Shown here piece by piece: positions 706 through 41,109 of a stretch of DNA of 41,109 nucleotides. The translations under genes were made by a program, and so were the position numbers. Source of the stretch: a bacterium (lineage in GTDB: Bacteria; UBP6; UBA1177); contig JAFQZM010000046.1 in NCBI GenBank assembly GCA_017405875.1, forward strand, positions 1 to 41,109, given 5' to 3'. The notes below the pieces were generated by a model that made no database searches, was not told the origin of the DNA, and worked only from the letters and a program-made list of their open reading frames with translations. The stretch's first letter is position 1, and every line of letters begins with the position of its first letter.

Positions 706-726
706 AAAGACCTCTCCGTCTCGTGA

Positions 727-753
727 CACCTCTCCTTATCAAGGCGAGGCAAG
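727..753 (+). repeat. Dispersed hairpin repeat, copy 1
   Basis: The 27 bases are CACCTCTCCT, a 5-base centre and AAGGCGAGGCAAG-type arms. CCTCTCCTT pairs with AAGGCGAGG across a 3-base loop, with a single T-C mismatch. The same arms, with the same mismatch and a different centre, occur at 38914-38939 on the opposite strand inside the restriction enzyme gene. This copy lies between the pilin sigma-54 promoter and recB. Confidence 0.65.
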
Positions 754-759
754 AAAAGG

Positions 760-812: not shown

Positions 813-3800
813 ATGGCTGCACAATATAAAAAATTCGATGTTTTAAACGTGAACCTTGCCGGGGAAAACCTTATTGAAGCGGCTGCGGGAACGGGCAAAA
901 CCTATTCAATTGCGATAATGGTGCTCCGTTGGATATTGTGCACAAATCACCCGATCGATTCGGTTCTTGCCGTAACTTTCACAAATTATGCGACAGCCGA
1001 ACTCAAGGAGAGAATTCTCAATTTTCTTGAAAAAGGGCTTGAATTTTTTGAAAAACCTGAAAACTGCAAAGACAAAACCATAAAAGAAGTGTGCAGCCGC
1101 ATCACCGATAAAAACGGGGCGATAGTGAAGCTGAAAAAGGCTATAAACGACTTTGACACGGCTTCTATATTCACCATTCACGGTTTCTGCCAGAAACTTA
1201 TCAGGGAACACGCTTTCGAACTCGGGATCGACTTCAAAATGGAACTTTCCGAAGATGCAGATCCGGCAAACGACACGGCTACGGCTTTTTTCAGGCAGAA
1301 TATCGCGAACTGCGAAACGACCGAACTTCTGGACAACAAAAAAAGCAGAGAAAAGATTTCCGTAAAAAAGCTGAAAGATTTCATTTCCAAAGCAGGGATC
1401 GGTATCGAAAACAAAAATATAAAGCTGGCCGTCTCAGACACCCCTTACGCCGACAAAATAGCTGAAATCTATAAAGATTTTGTCCAAAAAGCACCTGCTA
1501 TGGCCAAAGAGAGCCGCGACAGAAAAAACCTCATGGGATTCAACGATATTCTGCTCATAATCTACGAAGCTCTGAAAAACAATGAAAGCACCTCAGAGTC
1601 GCTTAAAAAAATCATGAAAGAGTGCTATTCGCTTGTTCTTATTGACGAATTTCAGGATACAGACCCTTTTCAATATTTCATTTTCAAAAAACTTTTCTGC
1701 AACGGAAAACACACGGTCTTTTTTATCGGAGACCCGAAACAGTCGATTTATTCTTTCAGAGACGCCGATATTTTTTCATATATTGATGCCAAAGAAGCTG
1801 TTGAAAACATTTACGAAATGGAAAAAAATTACAGATCTTCGGCAGCGGCTGTGGAAGCTACGAACGAAATTTTCAGCAAATCTGACAGTTTCGGCGAAAA
1901 CTCGCCGATAAAATATCAAACAGTATCGGCTGACAAAACTCCCGAAGATTACTCTCTGACAAAAAACGGAAAATCTCTCTCAGGAATGCTCGTGCATGAA
2001 ATTCGTGACGCAAAAATCACAAAAGAGGTTCTTAAAAAACAGATATGCAGCCATATTTCACAGTCGATACTGGAAATGACCGCGAAAAATTCTCCATTCA
2101 AAATCAATGAAAAAAGGGTCGAAAGAGCCGTCAAACCTTCAGATATCGCCGTTCTGGTTGCAAAAAACGATTTTGCGCTTGAAGTGTGCGAAAACCTGAA
2201 AAAAGCGGGCATTCCGGCAATAGTTGAAGCGGAAACTGCAAAAAGGCTCTCGATATTTTATTCGGAAGAGGCTTCCGCTATGCAGAAACTTATCTCTGCA
2301 GCTTCCACCGGAGGCTTTGCCGAGTTTAAAACGCTGCTTTTAACCTTTTTTTACAATAAAACCGTTGAGGATATTGCAGACGAACGCAATTCATCCGAAC
2401 TTTCAGAACTTCACAAAAATTTCAAATCATGCTTCGAGGACTGGAAACAGAAAGGGTTTTTCGCCTCTTTTTCAAAATTTCTCGAAGATGAAAGCATTAT
2501 CGCGAATATTGCAGCAAAAGGAGGAAGAACTGCCAGTATTATCCGCCAGTTATCCGAACTGATACACAAACATGAACTCTCAGAAGGATGCTCTCCCGTC
2601 TGGACGCCGGAATGGTTCAAAGGCAAAATAAAATCAAAAAGCGACGCTGAAGACGAAATCATCCGGACTGAAGGCGAAAAAACCGAAAGTGTCAGAATAA
2701 TGACTCTGCACAAAAGCAAGGGACTTGAATTCAACATCGTCTTTTTCCCGTTTATATTAAATCAGGAGAGGGGAGACAAATGGGTGCTCCAGCACAGGAA
2801 AAAAACATCCGGCGGATATGAAAGGGAAATGATTCTGGAAAAAGCCTCTGAGACGAAACAATACGGAGAGTTGCCGAACGACGATGAACTTGAAGAAAAG
2901 CGCAGGATATACGTCGGTGTCACGCGGGCAAAATATCTCACAGTATGCTACACGCAGGAAACAAAAAAATTTCTTGAAGCGACTTCCCTCTTTTTCGACA
3001 ATAAAAAGTCAAAATCTGTAAGCAGCGACGAACTTTTAAATCAAAACTGCACGGCTGCGGCGCCTGACGAAGAAAAACAGTATTCTTCCGGCCTAAAACT
3101 GCGCCATCCCGAAGAAGCGGAAGGTCCGATGCGACCCGAATGGGCACTGACGAGTTTCAGCGGAATAATTTCACAGGGACAAACCGGTGAAGGATCGCTT
3201 GCAAACGAAGAAGACGATCCCGAAAACAGCACCGACCAGTCTGCAGAAAACGGAACCCCGAATGAATCATCCGTTCCGATGGCGCTGTTTCCGAGCGGAA
3301 CCGATGCCGGAACCGTTCTTCACTCGATTTTTGAAAAAGCGGACTTCTCTTCCGAAGACAATACGGAAATTATTCGGACAATCCTGAAAAAGAAGATGAA
3401 TTTCAACAAAGAAGACCTCGAAAAAAATGTTCCGACAGTAAACGGGTGCCTCAACAATGTCTTTTCGGCGCCTATTTTCGACAGCGGCAGAACTTTGAGA
3501 GATGTTCAAAACAGCAAAACCGCCGAAATGGAATTTTTTCTTTCGATAAAAGACGATGTTCTCGAAGGAAAACTCTCGAAAATAATTGAAGACAACTACA
3601 AAACGGCGAAACTTGAAGCCGACAGCGTAAAAAAAGGTTTTCTCCACGGCTACATTGACCTTGTCGCAAAAGTTGACGACAAATACTACATCATCGACTG
3701 GAAATCGAACAATCTGAAGGAAGCAGACGATCCGGAAGATCCTTATTCTGCATACAACGCGAAAGGAATCGAAAAAGAGATGAAAAAACACAACTACTAC

Positions 3801-4007
3801 CTGCAGTATATGCTTTATCTCGCGGCATTTGACAGATATATGCAAAGCGTCGACAAAAACTATTCCTACGAAAAAAATTTCGGCGGAATCCGATACGTTT
3901 TCCTTCGCGGAGTCAAGGCGGGAAGTGACAAAACCGGCATTTTTTCAGACAGACCGGCGGAATCAGAATTAAGAAAAATCCAAGAACTTTTTGAAGGTAA
4001 AAAATGA
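813..4007 (+). CDS. recB: RecB: helicase-nuclease beta subunit of exonuclease V
   Basis: This is a UvrD-like superfamily 1 helicase with a C-terminal RecB nuclease, about 1064 residues. In RecBCD it unwinds and degrades double-strand ends and prepares them for RecA. Counting from the ATG at 813, the Walker A GTGKT is near 26-30, IDEFQD at 277-282, GDPKQS from 306, LHKSKGLEF from 632, and RRIYVGVTRAK from 697. The nuclease site shows His837, Asp949, Asp962 and Lys964; the Asp-13-Asp-2-Lys spacing equals that of the E. coli enzyme, so the nuclease should be active. An in-frame GTG at 723 would add 30 residues encoded by a repeat and the likely promoter, so 813, preceded by GGTGA, is preferred. 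It overlaps recD by 4 bases. An unusual insert near 3105-3145 precedes the C-terminal domain. No recC is seen. Confidence 0.93.
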   Translation: MAAQYKKFDVLNVNLAGENLIEAAAGTGKTYSIAIMVLRWILCTNHPIDSVLAVTFTNYATAELKERILNFLEKGLEFFEKPENCKDKTIKEVCSRITDKNGAIVKLKKAINDFDTASIFTIHGFCQKLIREHAFELGIDFKMELSEDADPANDTATAFFRQNIANCETTELLDNKKSREKISVKKLKDFISKAGIGIENKNIKLAVSDTPYADKIAEIYKDFVQKAPAMAKESRDRKNLMGFNDILLIIYEALKNNESTSESLKKIMKECYSLVLIDEFQDTDPFQYFIFKKLFCNGKHTVFFIGDPKQSIYSFRDADIFSYIDAKEAVENIYEMEKNYRSSAAAVEATNEIFSKSDSFGENSPIKYQTVSADKTPEDYSLTKNGKSLSGMLVHEIRDAKITKEVLKKQICSHISQSILEMTAKNSPFKINEKRVERAVKPSDIAVLVAKNDFALEVCENLKKAGIPAIVEAETAKRLSIFYSEEASAMQKLISAASTGGFAEFKTLLLTFFYNKTVEDIADERNSSELSELHKNFKSCFEDWKQKGFFASFSKFLEDESIIANIAAKGGRTASIIRQLSELIHKHELSEGCSPVWTPEWFKGKIKSKSDAEDEIIRTEGEKTESVRIMTLHKSKGLEFNIVFFPFILNQERGDKWVLQHRKKTSGGYEREMILEKASETKQYGELPNDDELEEKRRIYVGVTRAKYLTVCYTQETKKFLEATSLFFDNKKSKSVSSDELLNQNCTAAAPDEEKQYSSGLKLRHPEEAEGPMRPEWALTSFSGIISQGQTGEGSLANEEDDPENSTDQSAENGTPNESSVPMALFPSGTDAGTVLHSIFEKADFSSEDNTEIIRTILKKKMNFNKEDLEKNVPTVNGCLNNVFSAPIFDSGRTLRDVQNSKTAEMEFFLSIKDDVLEGKLSKIIEDNYKTAKLEADSVKKGFLHGYIDLVAKVDDKYYIIDWKSNNLKEADDPEDPYSAYNAKGIEKEMKKHNYYLQYMLYLAAFDRYMQSVDKNYSYEKNFGGIRYVFLRGVKAGSDKTGIFSDRPAESELRKIQELFEGKK

Positions 4008-10086: not shown

Positions 10087-10868
10087 AAGAAACTTTTAGA
10101 TGAAGGGCATCGAACATCGATCGAACCGCCGACACCGATTTTAAAGGATATCCAGGAATAGTCAAACCCGATCCCGGCTTCAAGGTATGCACCGACAACA
10201 AGATAAGGCCCTGCCGATGCTCCCAATGTCAAGCCGCGGAACCAAGCTGCGTTGTAGTCAACGCCGTATCTGAGACCTGCTCTGAAAACCATCCCGAATG
10301 AAAGGTATGCAGGAACGGGACCGATCTGGAAGTTTACCGTTCCCCCTTTTTCGATGTTTGCAAACTCCAAATCCTCCAGTTTCGGATCTTTTGCGAGCTT
10401 TTCTTTAAAGGTGTCGGGATCATTGACTTCATCAGCGTATTGGGCCAGTTTATCTTCAATTTTGTCAGAAGCGAGCTCAACTCCTTTGTGGACAAGGCCT
10501 TCCATAGCTTTTTTGCCTTTTTCAATGGCGGAAGATGTCAGGTCGTCGAAGCTGATATTCTGTGCAAAGAAATAGTATTTCGTGTAAGGCTTGAAAGTTT
10601 CCACCTTTCCTTCATATTTTCTCGCAAAAGCCTCTTTTGACTTCGGATTTACATGCTCAAGATCGATCAGTCTGCCGTATCTGTCTTTCTGAAGGCGTGT
10701 CGTGACATAAAACGTCGTCTCGAACAGGTCGGCATCGAAGCTGAAAAGGTGAAGACCGGAATAAACATGGGTGCACACTTCGCCGTAAGGAAGGAAATCA
10801 TCCAATTCTTGGTTTTTGAAATAATGATAAGTTTGAATATTGCTGGAACAAGTCGTCAAGTAAGACAT
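10053..10868 (-). CDS. Truncated, rearranged copy of the C-terminal region of the 1931-residue secreted protein
   Basis: The 271-residue frame starts MSYLTTCSSNIQTYHYF and from PYGEVCTHVY onward matches residues about 1599-1825 of the large protein encoded at 12061-17856. Only 4 residues differ over that stretch (T/A, S/A, D/E, Q/K), with no indels. After GGSIDV it departs into unrelated sequence and stops within the 12-bp repeat. It has no signal peptide, so the product would stay in the cytoplasm unless exported differently. The ribosome site is weak (GGTG, 8 bases before the ATG), 13 bases downstream of the lipoprotein gene. The first 26 residues resemble a different part of the large protein (SSDNIQTYFHF, near nt 16100), suggesting an internal deletion. 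It could be a pseudogene or a donor cassette for recombination. Confidence 0.55.
   Translation of the reverse strand: MSYLTTCSSNIQTYHYFKNQELDDFLPYGEVCTHVYSGLHLFSFDADLFETTFYVTTRLQKDRYGRLIDLEHVNPKSKEAFARKYEGKVETFKPYTKYYFFAQNISFDDLTSSAIEKGKKAMEGLVHKGVELASDKIEDKLAQYADEVNDPDTFKEKLAKDPKLEDLEFANIEKGGTVNFQIGPVPAYLSFGMVFRAGLRYGVDYNAAWFRGLTLGASAGPYLVVGAYLEAGIGFDYSWISFKIGVGGSIDVRCPSSKSFFCWSKITKMSV
10113..10791 (-). repeat. Segmental duplication, copy A (partner 12385-13063)
   Basis: This segment aligns base for base with 12385-13063 at a constant offset of 2272 and no gaps. Divergence is patchy: 10189-10290 has about 18 differences in about 100 bases, all silent, while 10291-10440 differs at about one position. 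Confidence 0.9.
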
Positions 10869-12060: not shown

Positions 12061-15000
12061 TTAAAACGTTGAAACATCATTGCCAAGCACCTTCATGCCT
12101 CTGCCTATAGAGAACAGATCAAGTTCGATCGGTTTCAGCGGTATGATATTTCTGAATTTTTTCTTTATTAACGGATCCCAGTCAAATATGGTTTTCTTTA
12201 CTGAAAAACCTATGGCCAGCGGTGAAACACCTATTTTACCTGACGCTTTGACATAAATTTTACCGGCAAGCAGATAAATTTCAGGTTCAAGGCTTGTCGA
12301 GAGATAAAATTTCATGTTCAAACCGTTGAAATCCATTGCAGGTTTCAGGAGACCCTGAACTTTGAGAGGTGCATAAAACTCGAAAACATCGATCGAACCG
12401 CCGACACCGATTTTAAAGGATATCCAGGAATAGTCAAACCCGATCCCGGCTTCAAGGTATGCGCCTACTACAAGATACGGCCCTGCCGATGCTCCGAGAG
12501 TCAGACCTCTAAACCAAGCTGCGTTGTAATCGACACCGTATCTGAGACCGGCACGGAAAACCATCCCGAATGAAAGGTATGCAGGAACGGGGCCGATCTG
12601 GAAGTTTACCGTTCCCCCTTTTTCGATGTTTGCAAACTCCAAATCCTCCAGTTTCGGATCTTTTGCGAGCTTTTCTTTAAAGGTGTCGGGATCATTGACT
12701 TCATCAGCGTATTTTGCCAGTTTTTCTTCGATTTTGTCAGAAGCGAGCTCAACTCCTTTGTGAACAAGTCCTTCCATGGCTTTTTTGCCTTTTTCAATGG
12801 CAGAAGCAGCCAGGTCGTCGAAGCTGATATTTTGCGCAAAGAAATAATACTTCGTGTAAGGTTTGAAAGTCTCTACCTTTCCTTCATATTTTCTTGCGAA
12901 AGCCTCTTTCGACTTCGGATTTACATGCTCAAGATCGATCAGTCTGCCGTATCTGTCTTTCTGAAGGCGCGTCGTGACATAAAATGTTGTTTCAAAAAGG
13001 TCAGCATCGAAACTGAAAAGGTGAAGCCCGGAATAAACATGAGTGCACACTTCACCGTAAGGAATTTTCAAAAGTTCATGCATGAAGATTTCTTCGACAC
13101 GCATTGCGATTGCAGTTGAGAGGAGTTGGGTTGGATTAACATTGTTTCTTTCGTCTGTAAGTTTGCTTTTCAATAAATCAAAATTGCAACTTTGATTTTG
13201 AGAACCACTTATTACATCACAAATGATTGGATTTAATGTCCCATCTAAATCAGGAATCTCCTCCAACAACCACTCAATAGCCGAATCATGTTGGACAGAA
13301 TTTATTTCAGTCTTTACGCCATTCATCAGTTCCTTGAATGTGCTGACAATACCTATTTCATTGGTAAGCCGTTTGATAACACGGATGAAAAAATCGCCAT
13401 CCAACAACTGAACAATTTCTCCGGCTGTATCGTCTGCCACGGTATATCCGACAGCAGAGAAGGTGAAAGGATTGTTTCCCAACGCGGCATATTGGTCAGA
13501 AATATTTTCTGCTAAATAATCATTAGGATTTTCATCAAAATTAGCAAGCGCAGTTAGAAGATTATTAATTTCACCTTTAGCACTGTCAGTTAATTCCGGA
13601 ATAATCATCTGCCCGATCAAACCCTGCCAGAAGCTGATGTCAGTGAGATCCGGTTCATTTTGACCATTTTGATTAACGGGGGATGTGTAAGAATATGTTG
13701 TTGCCATAGAAGACTCTGCCAGCCGCATGAACTTGTCCGTAAAAGACCCCTTGACTCTACCGAAATTTATCACAGGGTCAAAGTTTAGGTCGCTGCTTTG
13801 AAAATTAGTGTTTGAAGTTGTACTTCCGGCAAGAGTTCTGAGATTTTGATAGAAGGTATTATTCAATCGATTTTGGATTTCTTCGACAATGGTAGTGCAG
13901 TCAGCACAACCTGCTGTATCATTGACAAGATCCGGCATTGCTTTGTTACCTTTAAGATTGCTGCCGATGGTGCTGATGCTCCGCATGAAAGTATTTATGC
14001 TGCATTTGTCTGACATTGTTGCACAATCAAGTGCGTCTTGAATGATGTCATCAGAAGAATTTTCTAAGGATTTTTTAACTGCATTTATAGCAACTTGCAA
14101 TTTATTTTCACCGTTTTCATCAGCTGTAATTTGATTGTCAATAAACTTCTGCATATATGCCGTGACAATGCTTACAGGTACAATAACCGCAATTAAATCA
14201 TCATCGTTAGTATATATCCCGGCGATATCGGCTAAAAGATTCGTTTTATATGCAATATCTCCGCTGTATTCCCTTATCGCCCTTGTCAGAACAGTGTTCA
14301 GTGAAAGCGGAACACCATTGCTGCCTGAAACACTGAAATTGCCGCCGCTGACACATTGCACAGTGTCGCCGTCTATTTTCGGAAAGCAGGAAACATTTTT
14401 CACCTGGTTCAATGCCGGTTTTATTTCCCTTTTTATCAAATCGCGCTCTTTAGCATCAAATTTGAATGTCGTTAGAATATAATCCAGCGCAATTTCAGGT
14501 GCGGCTGTCTTCAGCAGAGATTTGAAATCTACAACGGTTTTCATCAGAAGTTTAATGTCGGCAGAAGTTAAACTGTTGCTGAAATCAATTGGATTAGAAC
14601 TATTGCCTATTTTGACCGAAAGCGAAGAGCAGTTTTTCAAATTTTGGGCAAGATTGTCTGTTCCTTGACCGGATGTCTCAATATAAATATTTGCAGTTCC
14701 GCAAGTAAAAGTGATTCTCGTATCACCGACAGCTCTGTTCAAGACAGCATCAACCAGCATGTCAAAAAGAATTCCGTTTGCATCTGTATTTGAATTTGAA
14801 TTGAGGCCTTTCAACGGATTTCCGCTGTGAACCATGCTGTTTATCAAGGTATAGAATGCTCCTTCCGAACCATGCTGACCATAGAGCTTCTTGAGTTCGT
14901 TCCTGATGATATTGGCATTTTCCTGAATTGCCCCTTCCCATGCGCGGACAAGGGATTCGGCTTCGGCTCTTTTCCCTTCAATTTCCTGCAAAATTTCGAG

Positions 15001-38673: not shown

Positions 38674-41109
38674 TCATTTCTTTTCTGTCAGCTTCTCATA
38701 CATCTTGAAAAGCTCGGCTACTATCTCAGATTCACTCATTTTCGGATTGAAACCGTAAGCCTGCATTACGGCGAGGTCGTTTGCTTCATGTGCCTTGCGC
38801 AAATCAGGCGGCATCGTGGTTTCATCGTACAAATCGGCAAGAGAAGATTCGGGATATCTTGCCCTCGCATCTAAAATCGCCTGAGCTGTCTGCTCGATTT
38901 TCTCTTTGATTTCCTTGCCTCGCCTTTTAGGAGAGGTGGCAGTATTGCTGCCGGAGAGGTCAGGCCACGGAAAGTTGTTGTAAACAATTTCCTTTGAATA
39001 ACGGTATCGCATTTCAAGCCTGCCTGCAATTGCGCGCATCCAAGCCATGTGAACAGAACTTGTCAAAATGCCGAAATGATAAAGCGTTGCATCAGGAATG
39101 AGATTTACCTGATTACTGCAAAGATTATCTGGGGTCATAAACCCGATCGGAATATAAAACCGTTTTTCCGAAGAGACTACCGGAACGACCATGAAATCTG
39201 TTGTCGGTATGACTTCCAGTCCGAATCTTGCAGGATACAAAGCAGCTTTTACAGTTGCCCCCCTTTTACTTGCAAGGCGATAGTGTTTCACTGCTTCTAA
39301 AATTTTCATACAACTGTTCATTTTACGAAGTTCTGCCGGCGAACAGTTTCCCAAATACAAGCACCAGCGCGGACAATTATATAAAAACTCTTCTGCTCCG
39401 TACCAAAGACGGAAATATTTTTCCGATAACGGTTCTTTTTTTACGAATTCATTCTTTTCAACATCTGTAAACATGAATTTATCGTTATCTATACGCTGGC
39501 TGCCTGTAAGAAGCGGAGGCACATCAAATAAAGGCGACATACGTTTTTCGATAAAAATATCGGGGGCGTCAAGCAGATATCCGTTTATGTTTTCTGCCTC
39601 TATTTTCTCATGCTCATTCTCAAAAATAATTTTCTGTTTTGTGTTCTCTGCGACACTGAATCCGATAACAACACAATGGACTGTAGCCATATTGCCTTTA
39701 TCCGAGGTTTCGTTCGCCCATTTGAATGTCCGCCATGCGAAATCAAAATGAATCCCTTCGGCAAAAAGCGGCTTCCACAGATTTGCTACAGATGCTCCCT
39801 GCGTAACGGAATTTGTCGAAACAAATGCACATCTGGTATTTGTGCCTTTTATCAAATCAAATGCCTTTTTATACCAGCAACTGACATAATCAAGATCTCC
39901 TGCTCCGTGCCAATCCCTGCCGAAAGTAGAAATCAGATCTTCCTTCTGCCGTTTATCCATAAACCTTGCACCAACAAACGGCGGATTTCCGATGATGTAG
40001 TTATAATTCCGATAGTTTTTTATGTTTTCCGGAAGTTCTTTTGATTCGACTTCTTTTGCGACAACATTCAATTCTTTGTAATGTTCACCGTATTTGGGTT
40101 TTGGTTCACCAACGGCATAAACATTCAATTTGTCGGCATAAACAAAAGTGTCGGATTTTTCAGCCGAAAGCGTTGACCAGTCCATTCTGAGTGCGTTGCC
40201 TTCAACTATTGTGGCACTTGTTGAAAGCGGCAGGAAATCAAGATTCTGCTCTACGATCTTCTCGGTTTCCTTCATCATCTGGCTTTCCGCAATCCAAAGA
40301 GCCGTTTTTGCGACAGTCACTGCAAAATCGTTGATTTCAATGCCGTAAAACTGCGATATTCGGACTTTTATCGGCGAAAAATCCTTGCTCGAAAGAAGCA
40401 TCTGCGAGCCGTGAATAACTTTCAGACACTCGTTTTCCAAGCGTCTAAGAGAAATATATGTCTCTGTCAGAAAATTTCCGCTGCCACATGCGGGATCAAG
40501 AAATTTCAAAGAGGCCAGTTTATTGCGGAAATCGTCTAATTTTTTTATTTTTTCTTTTCCCGCTTTTTTGCGTAAAGCAGCAAATTCCGCTTTCAGATCA
40601 TCCATAAAGAGCGGATCGATAACTTTGTGGATATTTTCGATCGAAGTATAATGCATCCCGCCTTTGCGCCGCGTTTCGGGGTTGAGTGTCGATTCAAAAA
40701 CGGCGCCGAAAATCGTGGGCGAAATCTCCGACCAGTCGAAAGGAGCACAGTGATTCACGATAACATCAACGATTTCTTTGGTAAAATTGGGAATTTCAAT
40801 CGTGTCATCGGCAAAAAGCCCGCCGTTCGTGTAAGGAAACGAATTGATTTTCGTGTCATATTTGTCGCGGTTTTCAGGCTTCGTATTCAGAATTTTGAAC
40901 AGTTTTATAATTCCGTCGCGAAGATTTTCTGTTGAAAACGATTTTATATAGTCTTCAAAAGCCGTCCTCGTCTCGAAAAGGCCTGCATCTTCGGCATAAA
41001 GGCAGAAAACTATTCTGACGCACAGGATATTCAAACTTCGGAAACTGTTTTCGTCAGGCTCGATATATTCCTTAAAAAGCGCATCGTAGAGTTTGCCGAC
41101 AAGCTCACC
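38674..41109 (-). CDS. MmeI-like (type IIL/IIG) restriction-modification enzyme, C-terminal part
   Basis: The frame is open to the right edge, so the N-terminus with the nuclease domain is outside the window; about 811 codons are visible. Reading from the edge, LNILCVRIVFCLYAEDAG precedes the methyltransferase. Motif X-like RRKGGMHYTS is near 40650-40690, the SAM site DPACGSGNF near 40472-40496, and catalytic NPPF at 39975-39986, giving an N6-adenine methyltransferase. A target recognition region follows, then the usual C-terminus (AQAILDARARYPESSLADLY, MPPDLRKAH, MQAYGF). Cleavage and methylation are normally in this one polypeptide, with no separate specificity subunit. The recognition sequence cannot be read by eye. 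A repeat-coded insert, SPKRRGKE, interrupts the C-terminal region at 38914-38939. Confidence 0.9.
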   Translation of the reverse strand, partial: GELVGKLYDALFKEYIEPDENSFRSLNILCVRIVFCLYAEDAGLFETRTAFEDYIKSFSTENLRDGIIKLFKILNTKPENRDKYDTKINSFPYTNGGLFADDTIEIPNFTKEIVDVIVNHCAPFDWSEISPTIFGAVFESTLNPETRRKGGMHYTSIENIHKVIDPLFMDDLKAEFAALRKKAGKEKIKKLDDFRNKLASLKFLDPACGSGNFLTETYISLRRLENECLKVIHGSQMLLSSKDFSPIKVRISQFYGIEINDFAVTVAKTALWIAESQMMKETEKIVEQNLDFLPLSTSATIVEGNALRMDWSTLSAEKSDTFVYADKLNVYAVGEPKPKYGEHYKELNVVAKEVESKELPENIKNYRNYNYIIGNPPFVGARFMDKRQKEDLISTFGRDWHGAGDLDYVSCWYKKAFDLIKGTNTRCAFVSTNSVTQGASVANLWKPLFAEGIHFDFAWRTFKWANETSDKGNMATVHCVVIGFSVAENTKQKIIFENEHEKIEAENINGYLLDAPDIFIEKRMSPLFDVPPLLTGSQRIDNDKFMFTDVEKNEFVKKEPLSEKYFRLWYGAEEFLYNCPRWCLYLGNCSPAELRKMNSCMKILEAVKHYRLASKRGATVKAALYPARFGLEVIPTTDFMVVPVVSSEKRFYIPIGFMTPDNLCSNQVNLIPDATLYHFGILTSSVHMAWMRAIAGRLEMRYRYSKEIVYNNFPWPDLSGSNTATSPKRRGKEIKEKIEQTAQAILDARARYPESSLADLYDETTMPPDLRKAHEANDLAVMQAYGFNPKMSESEIVAELFKMYEKLTEKK
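38914..38939 (-). repeat. Dispersed hairpin repeat, copy 2, in-frame in the restriction enzyme
   Basis: The minus strand reads CCACCTCTCCT-AAA-AGGCGAGGCAAG. It has the same arms as the copy at 727-753 and the same T-C mismatch within the stem, with a different centre. In frame it codes for TSPKRRGK between two conserved parts of the MmeI-like C-terminus. It looks like a palindromic element tolerated inside a coding sequence. Confidence 0.65.

Follow-up and report, generated by a model that had tools for sequence, protein, structure and literature searches.

Why does one short hairpin occur both in the leader of a recB gene and within the coding sequence of a restriction enzyme? This question is raised by the window, the whole 41,109-nucleotide stretch of DNA analyzed here, in which each arm of the hairpin was found exactly twice. 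The sequence reads CACCTCTCCT-TATCA-AGGCGAGGCAAG at 727–753 on the plus strand (copy 1) and CACCTCTCCT-AAA-AGGCGAGGCAAG at 38914–38938 on the minus strand (copy 2). The initial annotation had located copy 1 exactly and the inverted copy 2 with an end one base too far (38939). The different centers (TATCA and AAA) and the internal T/C mismatch common to both copies, which it had also described, were confirmed in the window sequence, and TSPKRRGK is the in-frame reading of copy 2 in the restriction gene, as it had stated. The hairpin repeat was hence real, but understated. A comparison of the flanks of all copies identified the 27-nt hairpin as the 3′ half of a two-hairpin element of approximately 48 nt, whose shared unit consists of GACCTCTCC, a short hairpin with a copy-variable stem, and ACCTCTCC plus a loop plus AGGCGAGGCAAG, usually followed by G. 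The stem of the upstream hairpin, which GACCTCTCC precedes, is GTC/GAC in copy 1 and GGCAG/CTGCC in copy 2. Copy 1 spans 709–757 (+) in the divergent spacer, or leader, upstream of recB; its match to our covariance model R1 covers 709–754. DNA folding located its hairpin 1 (GTC....GAC, with a covarying stem) at 718–727 (+) and its hairpin 2 (CCTC-t-CCTT...AAGG-c-GAGG), the core of the repeat first noticed, at 729–749 (+). Copy 2 spans 38913–38961 (−) inside the restriction-modification gene and is translated in frame as DLSGSNTATSPKRRGK. Its hairpin 1 (GGCAG.....CTGCC, from DNA folding) lies at 38938–38952 (−), and hairpin 2 (from DNA folding and the exact-arm search) at 38918–38936 (−). DNA folding gave the short hairpins z-scores of −3.5 (copy 1) and −2.3 (copy 2), and the 49-nt elements z-scores of −1.4 (copy 1) and −3.3 (copy 2). 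A two-hairpin consensus of 16 copies had 97.1% of its cells paired, and its covariation score was reached by none of 500 shuffles. Both-side changes were present in 3 pairs (2 in hairpin 1 and 1 in hairpin 2), a number that 77 of the 500 shuffles also reached and that is unexceptional alone. No Rfam RNA family was matched at gathering score at the five loci searched.

The similarity of the two copies could be ascribed to chance or to convergent codon use involving no DNA element, for which it speaks that only two exact copies are present in the source genome (G000; 2.5 Mb in 47 contigs). A search there for the exact arm cores with a 0–12-nt center returned just the two window copies, and nothing for the reversed control. 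The initial annotation had regarded such a restriction to two copies as an argument against a dispersed family. The restriction holds for exact arms and disappears when variants are allowed, as a looser palindrome was found at 13 places in G000 (reversed control, 0), and model R1 gave 19 matches at 14 sites. At least one match to the exact-arm pattern was present in 13 of 61 genomes searched, while a strict 48-nt pattern, applied to 386 genomes, was matched in 11, every one a member of the source genus (15 genomes; reversed control, 0). R1 was matched in all 15 genomes of this genus, with 2–19 matches per genome, and in none of the 13 genomes examined from elsewhere in the phylum. Against chance likeness stand this genus-wide family, for which reversed controls gave 0 in the genus, the covarying stems, and the conservation of synonymous sites inside the inserts described below. 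Chance was rejected by the whole-genome exact-arm search, the 386-genome pattern search, and window shuffles, in which a looser pattern (no more than 3 mismatches; arms without CA/CAAG) was expected 0.16 times per shuffled window and reached two matches in 2 of 100 shuffles; we consider it extremely improbable.

The matches in G000 include inverted doublets on contigs C18, C14 (two), C46, and C5, and both window copies are single. Assignment of the sites to genes or intergenic regions, which was based on open frames and not on annotation, placed copies in frame and clearly within the MmeI-like genes on C43 and C41. In-frame doublets were also found in an HsdM-type methylase (Pfam N6_Mtase; inverted, C5:7052/7099) and in two reverse transcriptase genes (Pfam RVT_1; C46:33927/33978 and C14:3464/3515). 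Two further sites, in HsdR (C5:13336) and a reverse transcriptase (C14:4602/4653), are at N-termini or leaders for which the start codon is uncertain, and the remaining seven, including the recB leader, are apparently intergenic. In the PDB, the reverse transcriptase best matched 8ub7, which we take to be the reverse transcriptase of a diversity-generating retroelement. The doublets on C46 (locus L241) and C14 (L243) sit downstream of the RVT_1 match, and these reverse transcriptase genes adjoin cysteine-rich proteins. A Type I restriction-modification locus (G000:C5:5400–18000, L240) holds five element matches, including those of the HsdM doublet and the HsdR N-terminus.

Short imperfect palindromes dispersed in several copies per genome, as those matched by R1 are, agree with the general description of REPs, which brings in the reading that they are classical REP/REPIN elements moved by a RAYT (Y1 HUH) transposase. 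The imperfect palindrome with its internal mismatch and the inverted doublets are consistent with this reading, and Y1 genes do exist elsewhere in the phylum, a gene of this kind being present in 14 of the 31 genomes searched. However, the Y1 transposase (PF01797) was absent from G000 and 13 of its 14 genus mates in this search, so that one genus mate has such a gene, and the GTAG/CGTC tetranucleotide tag was absent from the ends of the 16 aligned copies, which mostly read GACC...CAAG followed by G or A. Neither a CTCTCC..GGnGAG nor a GTAGAGACG repeat was located beside the Y1 genes in the 9 regions examined, where bare CCTCACC words and one GTCAC hairpin were the only occurrences of the searched repeats. 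A RAYT partner was hence found neither in G000 nor beside 9 Y1 genes, and we regard mobilization by such an enzyme as unlikely. Since the element agrees with the general REP description and lacks both the tag and the RAYT, we call it REP-like and do not assign it to a REP–RAYT system. It resembles REPIN and BIME in its imperfect palindromes and in inverted doublets approximately 50 nt apart, and differs from RAYT-associated REPIN/BIME in that G000 contains no Y1 transposase and in that its copy number is modest (19 matches).

The restriction gene carrying copy 2 is an MmeI-like Type IIL restriction-modification gene (38674–41034, −), whose 5′ part is lost at the contig end. It encodes MmeI_hel, MmeI_Mtase, MmeI_TRD, and MmeI_C in this order; MmeI_N, which is present in complete relatives, would lie beyond the contig end. 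Pfam assigned MmeI_TRD to residues 489–693 (38956–39570, −), ending where the insert begins, and MmeI_C to residues 710–784 (38683–38907, −), starting after it, so that the insert occupies approximately residues 692–708 between the two domains. The crystallized Type IIL enzyme MmeI (PDB 5hr4) has the same domains and differs in having no insert, since the alignment opens a gap at the insert site, near residue 824 by our own count. The structural report gives TRD as 621–825 and C as 826–919 (PMC4833311). As crystallized MmeI and most relatives are without it, the insert is an in-frame addition in the TRD/C linker. This linker was parsed in 126 of 134 loci, yielding 94 distinct sequences, of which 65 measured 27 nt, 25 measured 39–90 nt, and 4 had other lengths (26, 30, 33, and 201 nt). 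The long linkers were multiples of three in 24 of the 25 cases, the other one (L194, 65 nt) possibly being a frameshift. Such comparison with relatives had been proposed in the initial annotation together with the objection that relatives may carry the same residues on unrelated DNA, which is not the case; shared residues come with shared DNA. The number of MmeI-like paralogs is 4 in G000, 3 of which have an extended TRD/C linker, and reaches 7 in another genome (G010). Insert-bearing relatives keep long open frames with low dN/dS outside the insert, and the enzymes themselves probably stay active. The element-bearing MmeI-like gene at G013:C76 (L026/L046) has several stops in its TRD region and represents a decaying copy. 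Dispersal, insert-free relatives, and open frames together support the earlier proposal of a palindromic family that can enter genes without breaking them.

The CCTCTCC element is one of several at this linker, where two GTAGAGACG forms, GTCATTCTGAGC, TTTCGACAGGCTCAATGACC, and GCACGCGAGCCGCGTGC were also found as inserts; the TTTCGACAGGCTCAATGACC insert, seen in one gene, is a candidate repeat. Inserts in Bacteroidales TRD/C linkers were GTAGAGACG, GCGGGCTGGCAGCCCGC, and CAATTGACAATT. The Bacteroidales MmeI-like genes L115, L117, L118, L119, and L113 carry other palindromes at the linker. A MmeI_TRD match was obtained in 46 of 296 sampled genomes of the phylum to which the L115 genome belongs, and among 30 loci from that phylum, 9 of which had a linker that could not be read, the readable linkers measured 12–14 residues except in L269, which has the L115 insert. 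Dispersal beyond the TRD/C linker was seen for the CCTCTCC element with R1. The GTAGAGACG palindrome, a separate family that begins with GTAG, was found in 10 of 13 genomes searched (control, 0), with 28 and 29 copies in two genomes recorded as Bacteroidales. Dispersal was seen in part for GTCATTCTGAGC and for GCACGCGAGCC, the latter within MmeI-like loci only; the other three are candidates for it. GTAGAGACGTCACCTGAGACGTCTC repeats read VETSPETS in frame in proline-rich linkers of other proteins (G000:C15, L292; G006:C14, L294).

Alignment of 130 non-redundant proteins located three further insert sites: the MmeI_N/MmeI_hel junction, a position immediately ahead of MmeI_Mtase, and the MmeI_Mtase/MmeI_TRD junction. 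Compared with the crystal boundaries, the TRD/C site alone falls exactly at a boundary, and the other three are inside or near domain ends. Junctions extended by at least 4 residues numbered at least one in 42 of 54 genes, at least two in 18, and three in 4, counts that also take in usual differences in length, chiefly at the MTase/TRD site. Three inserts were present in one gene, L059, at residues 200–225, 389–412, and 963–977, and up to three likewise in L079. The 64 extended junctions had a median fold z of −1.6, with 48% below −2, versus a median of 0.0 and 1.7% below −2 for 120 control windows of the same genes. For several MTase/TRD-site extensions the fold z was close to 0, and these may represent ordinary variation in length.

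The inserts turn over faster than their host genes. Synonymous differences per site were 0–0.28 in the CCTCTCC insert and 0.45–0.77 in the adjoining C domain (seven pairs, with few sites). The insert differed less than the synonymous sites of its flanks in all 63 pairs for which both flanks had diverged; of 69 pairs in all, 6 whose flanks were closer or missing had been excluded, and the 63 are not independent, as 36 come from 9 genes. In total nucleotide identity the insert exceeded both flanks in 44 of 60 pairs, a count that leaves out the MTase/TRD-site groups and the L063 pairs. The clearest pair, L057 and L246 from two species, has inserts identical at 90 of 90 nt between flanks with synonymous differences of 0.63 and 0.54. 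Inserts resemble each other more closely than flanking synonymous sites do, and their movement or copying is therefore independent of the host gene. In four places an 81-nt GTAGAGACG insert occupies the TRD/C site, and a fifth gene (G003:C40) carries it, with 90% identity, at the hel/MTase site; the presence of this insert at two different junctions cannot be explained by copying between equal positions of paralogs. Two other proteins have shorter pieces of it in their proline-rich linkers, and one copy is apparently intergenic.

The location of the inserts at or near domain junctions, the several paralogs per genome, and the recurrence of one repeat in different paralogs and junctions might suggest recombination seams, in which junction palindromes let paralogous MmeI-like genes swap domains, repeats and exchange being selected together. 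A change-point scan of 58 gene pairs detected 14 sharp identity breaks, with 2 in 480–499 and 4 in 340–359; the TRD/C linker had none. On this result, shuffling of modules at the repeats was rejected, and the seam explanation appears quite unlikely. The recurrence at the same loops and the frame kept in nearly all long linkers could likewise point to a functional peptide, namely that the repeat-encoded linker length is selected because it tunes cleavage distance, target choice, or flexibility. However, the repeats at one site are unrelated and vary from 39 to 90 nt, the loops are predicted to be disordered, and in the few computable pairs the dN/dS of the insert is above that of the flanking domains. 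A selected peptide is therefore judged very unlikely. The disorder prediction comes from an AlphaFold2 model of L059 (mean pLDDT 82, pTM 0.71, 48 sequences), in which pLDDT falls below 50 at residues 202–220, 392–406, and 966–970, each inside one of the three inserts. Six further segments of the model are also below 50, so that it agrees with a position in disordered loops and is no proof of it.

The best explanation, to which we assign a probability of roughly 80%, is that these are genus-specific, non-autonomous REP-like palindromes that enter genes in frame and survive in flexible loops. The approximately 48-nt palindrome with two hairpins, present singly or as inverted doublets and specific to one genus of rumen bacteria, would have left copy 1 in the recB leader, while copy 2 would have entered the TRD/C loop of an MmeI-like gene in frame, to be translated as a loop extension. 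Palindromes of several unrelated families would enter genes for MmeI-like enzymes, HsdM, reverse transcriptases, and proline-rich proteins, and copies would survive if they leave the frame intact and lie in flexible loops, for the most part at domain junctions or close to them. Survivorship accounts in part for the in-frame state. The hotspot probably arose by selection against other insertion positions, and the DNA presumably moves by transposition in trans or by recombination between copies. It is conceivable, though doubtful, that the palindromes act as portable in-frame linker cassettes, copied among junction loops and paralogs faster than the enzymes diverge and thereby reshaping inter-domain joints. 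If this were true, repeat DNA would tune or swap the modules of restriction enzymes, beyond being merely tolerated. Within one genus, one enzyme family with many paralogs provides a natural series with and without repeat-encoded linkers at several joints, so that it becomes directly testable whether palindromes inside genes are carried neutrally or change the host proteins. An anti-phage enzyme family is here a recurrent sink for repeat DNA.

In-frame palindromes were already known. Rickettsia palindromic elements are described as small palindromic DNAs of approximately 150 nt and several families inserted in frame in genes (PMC10969869). By this description the present element is similar in its in-frame insertion and its absence from relatives, and differs in its length of approximately 48 nt, its phylum, and the convergence of several families on the loops of one enzyme family. 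Intragenic REPs with the GTAG/CGTC tag were reported as monomers and dimers inside open reading frames of repair genes; the same account mentions different REPs at about one site of Xanthomonas recB and proposes that the inserts occupy linkers or loops (Di Nocera et al. 2013, PMC3733652). Its main text contains neither the word restriction nor the word methyltransferase. The targets here differ, being MmeI-like, HsdM, and reverse transcriptase genes; a single gene can hold as many as three inserts, and one site can be occupied by unrelated families. A literature search by titles and abstracts found no report of palindromes in restriction-enzyme linkers, and the occurrence of several repeat families at several junctions of a single enzyme family is, to our knowledge, new.

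Finally, copy 1 is situated between recB (813–4007, +; a UvrD-type helicase with PDDEXK by Pfam, its ATG at 813 read by eye from the sequence) and a type IV pilin-like gene (167–649, −) named from the sequence alone. In the nearest relative (L296, 92% recB identity), the contig ends 44 nt upstream of recB. The recB leader of L297 has a GTAGAGACG-type palindrome, that of L303 a CCTCACC..CCTCTCC repeat, and that of L298 neither of these two; L305–L309 were not located by the recB query in this comparison. Across species of the genus, the palindromic repeats in the spacer upstream of recB differ (L297, L299, and L303). Elsewhere in the window, 10113–10412 and 12385–12684 form a 300-nt direct repeat of 94% identity, with a second copy of a large gene's end lying beside that gene.
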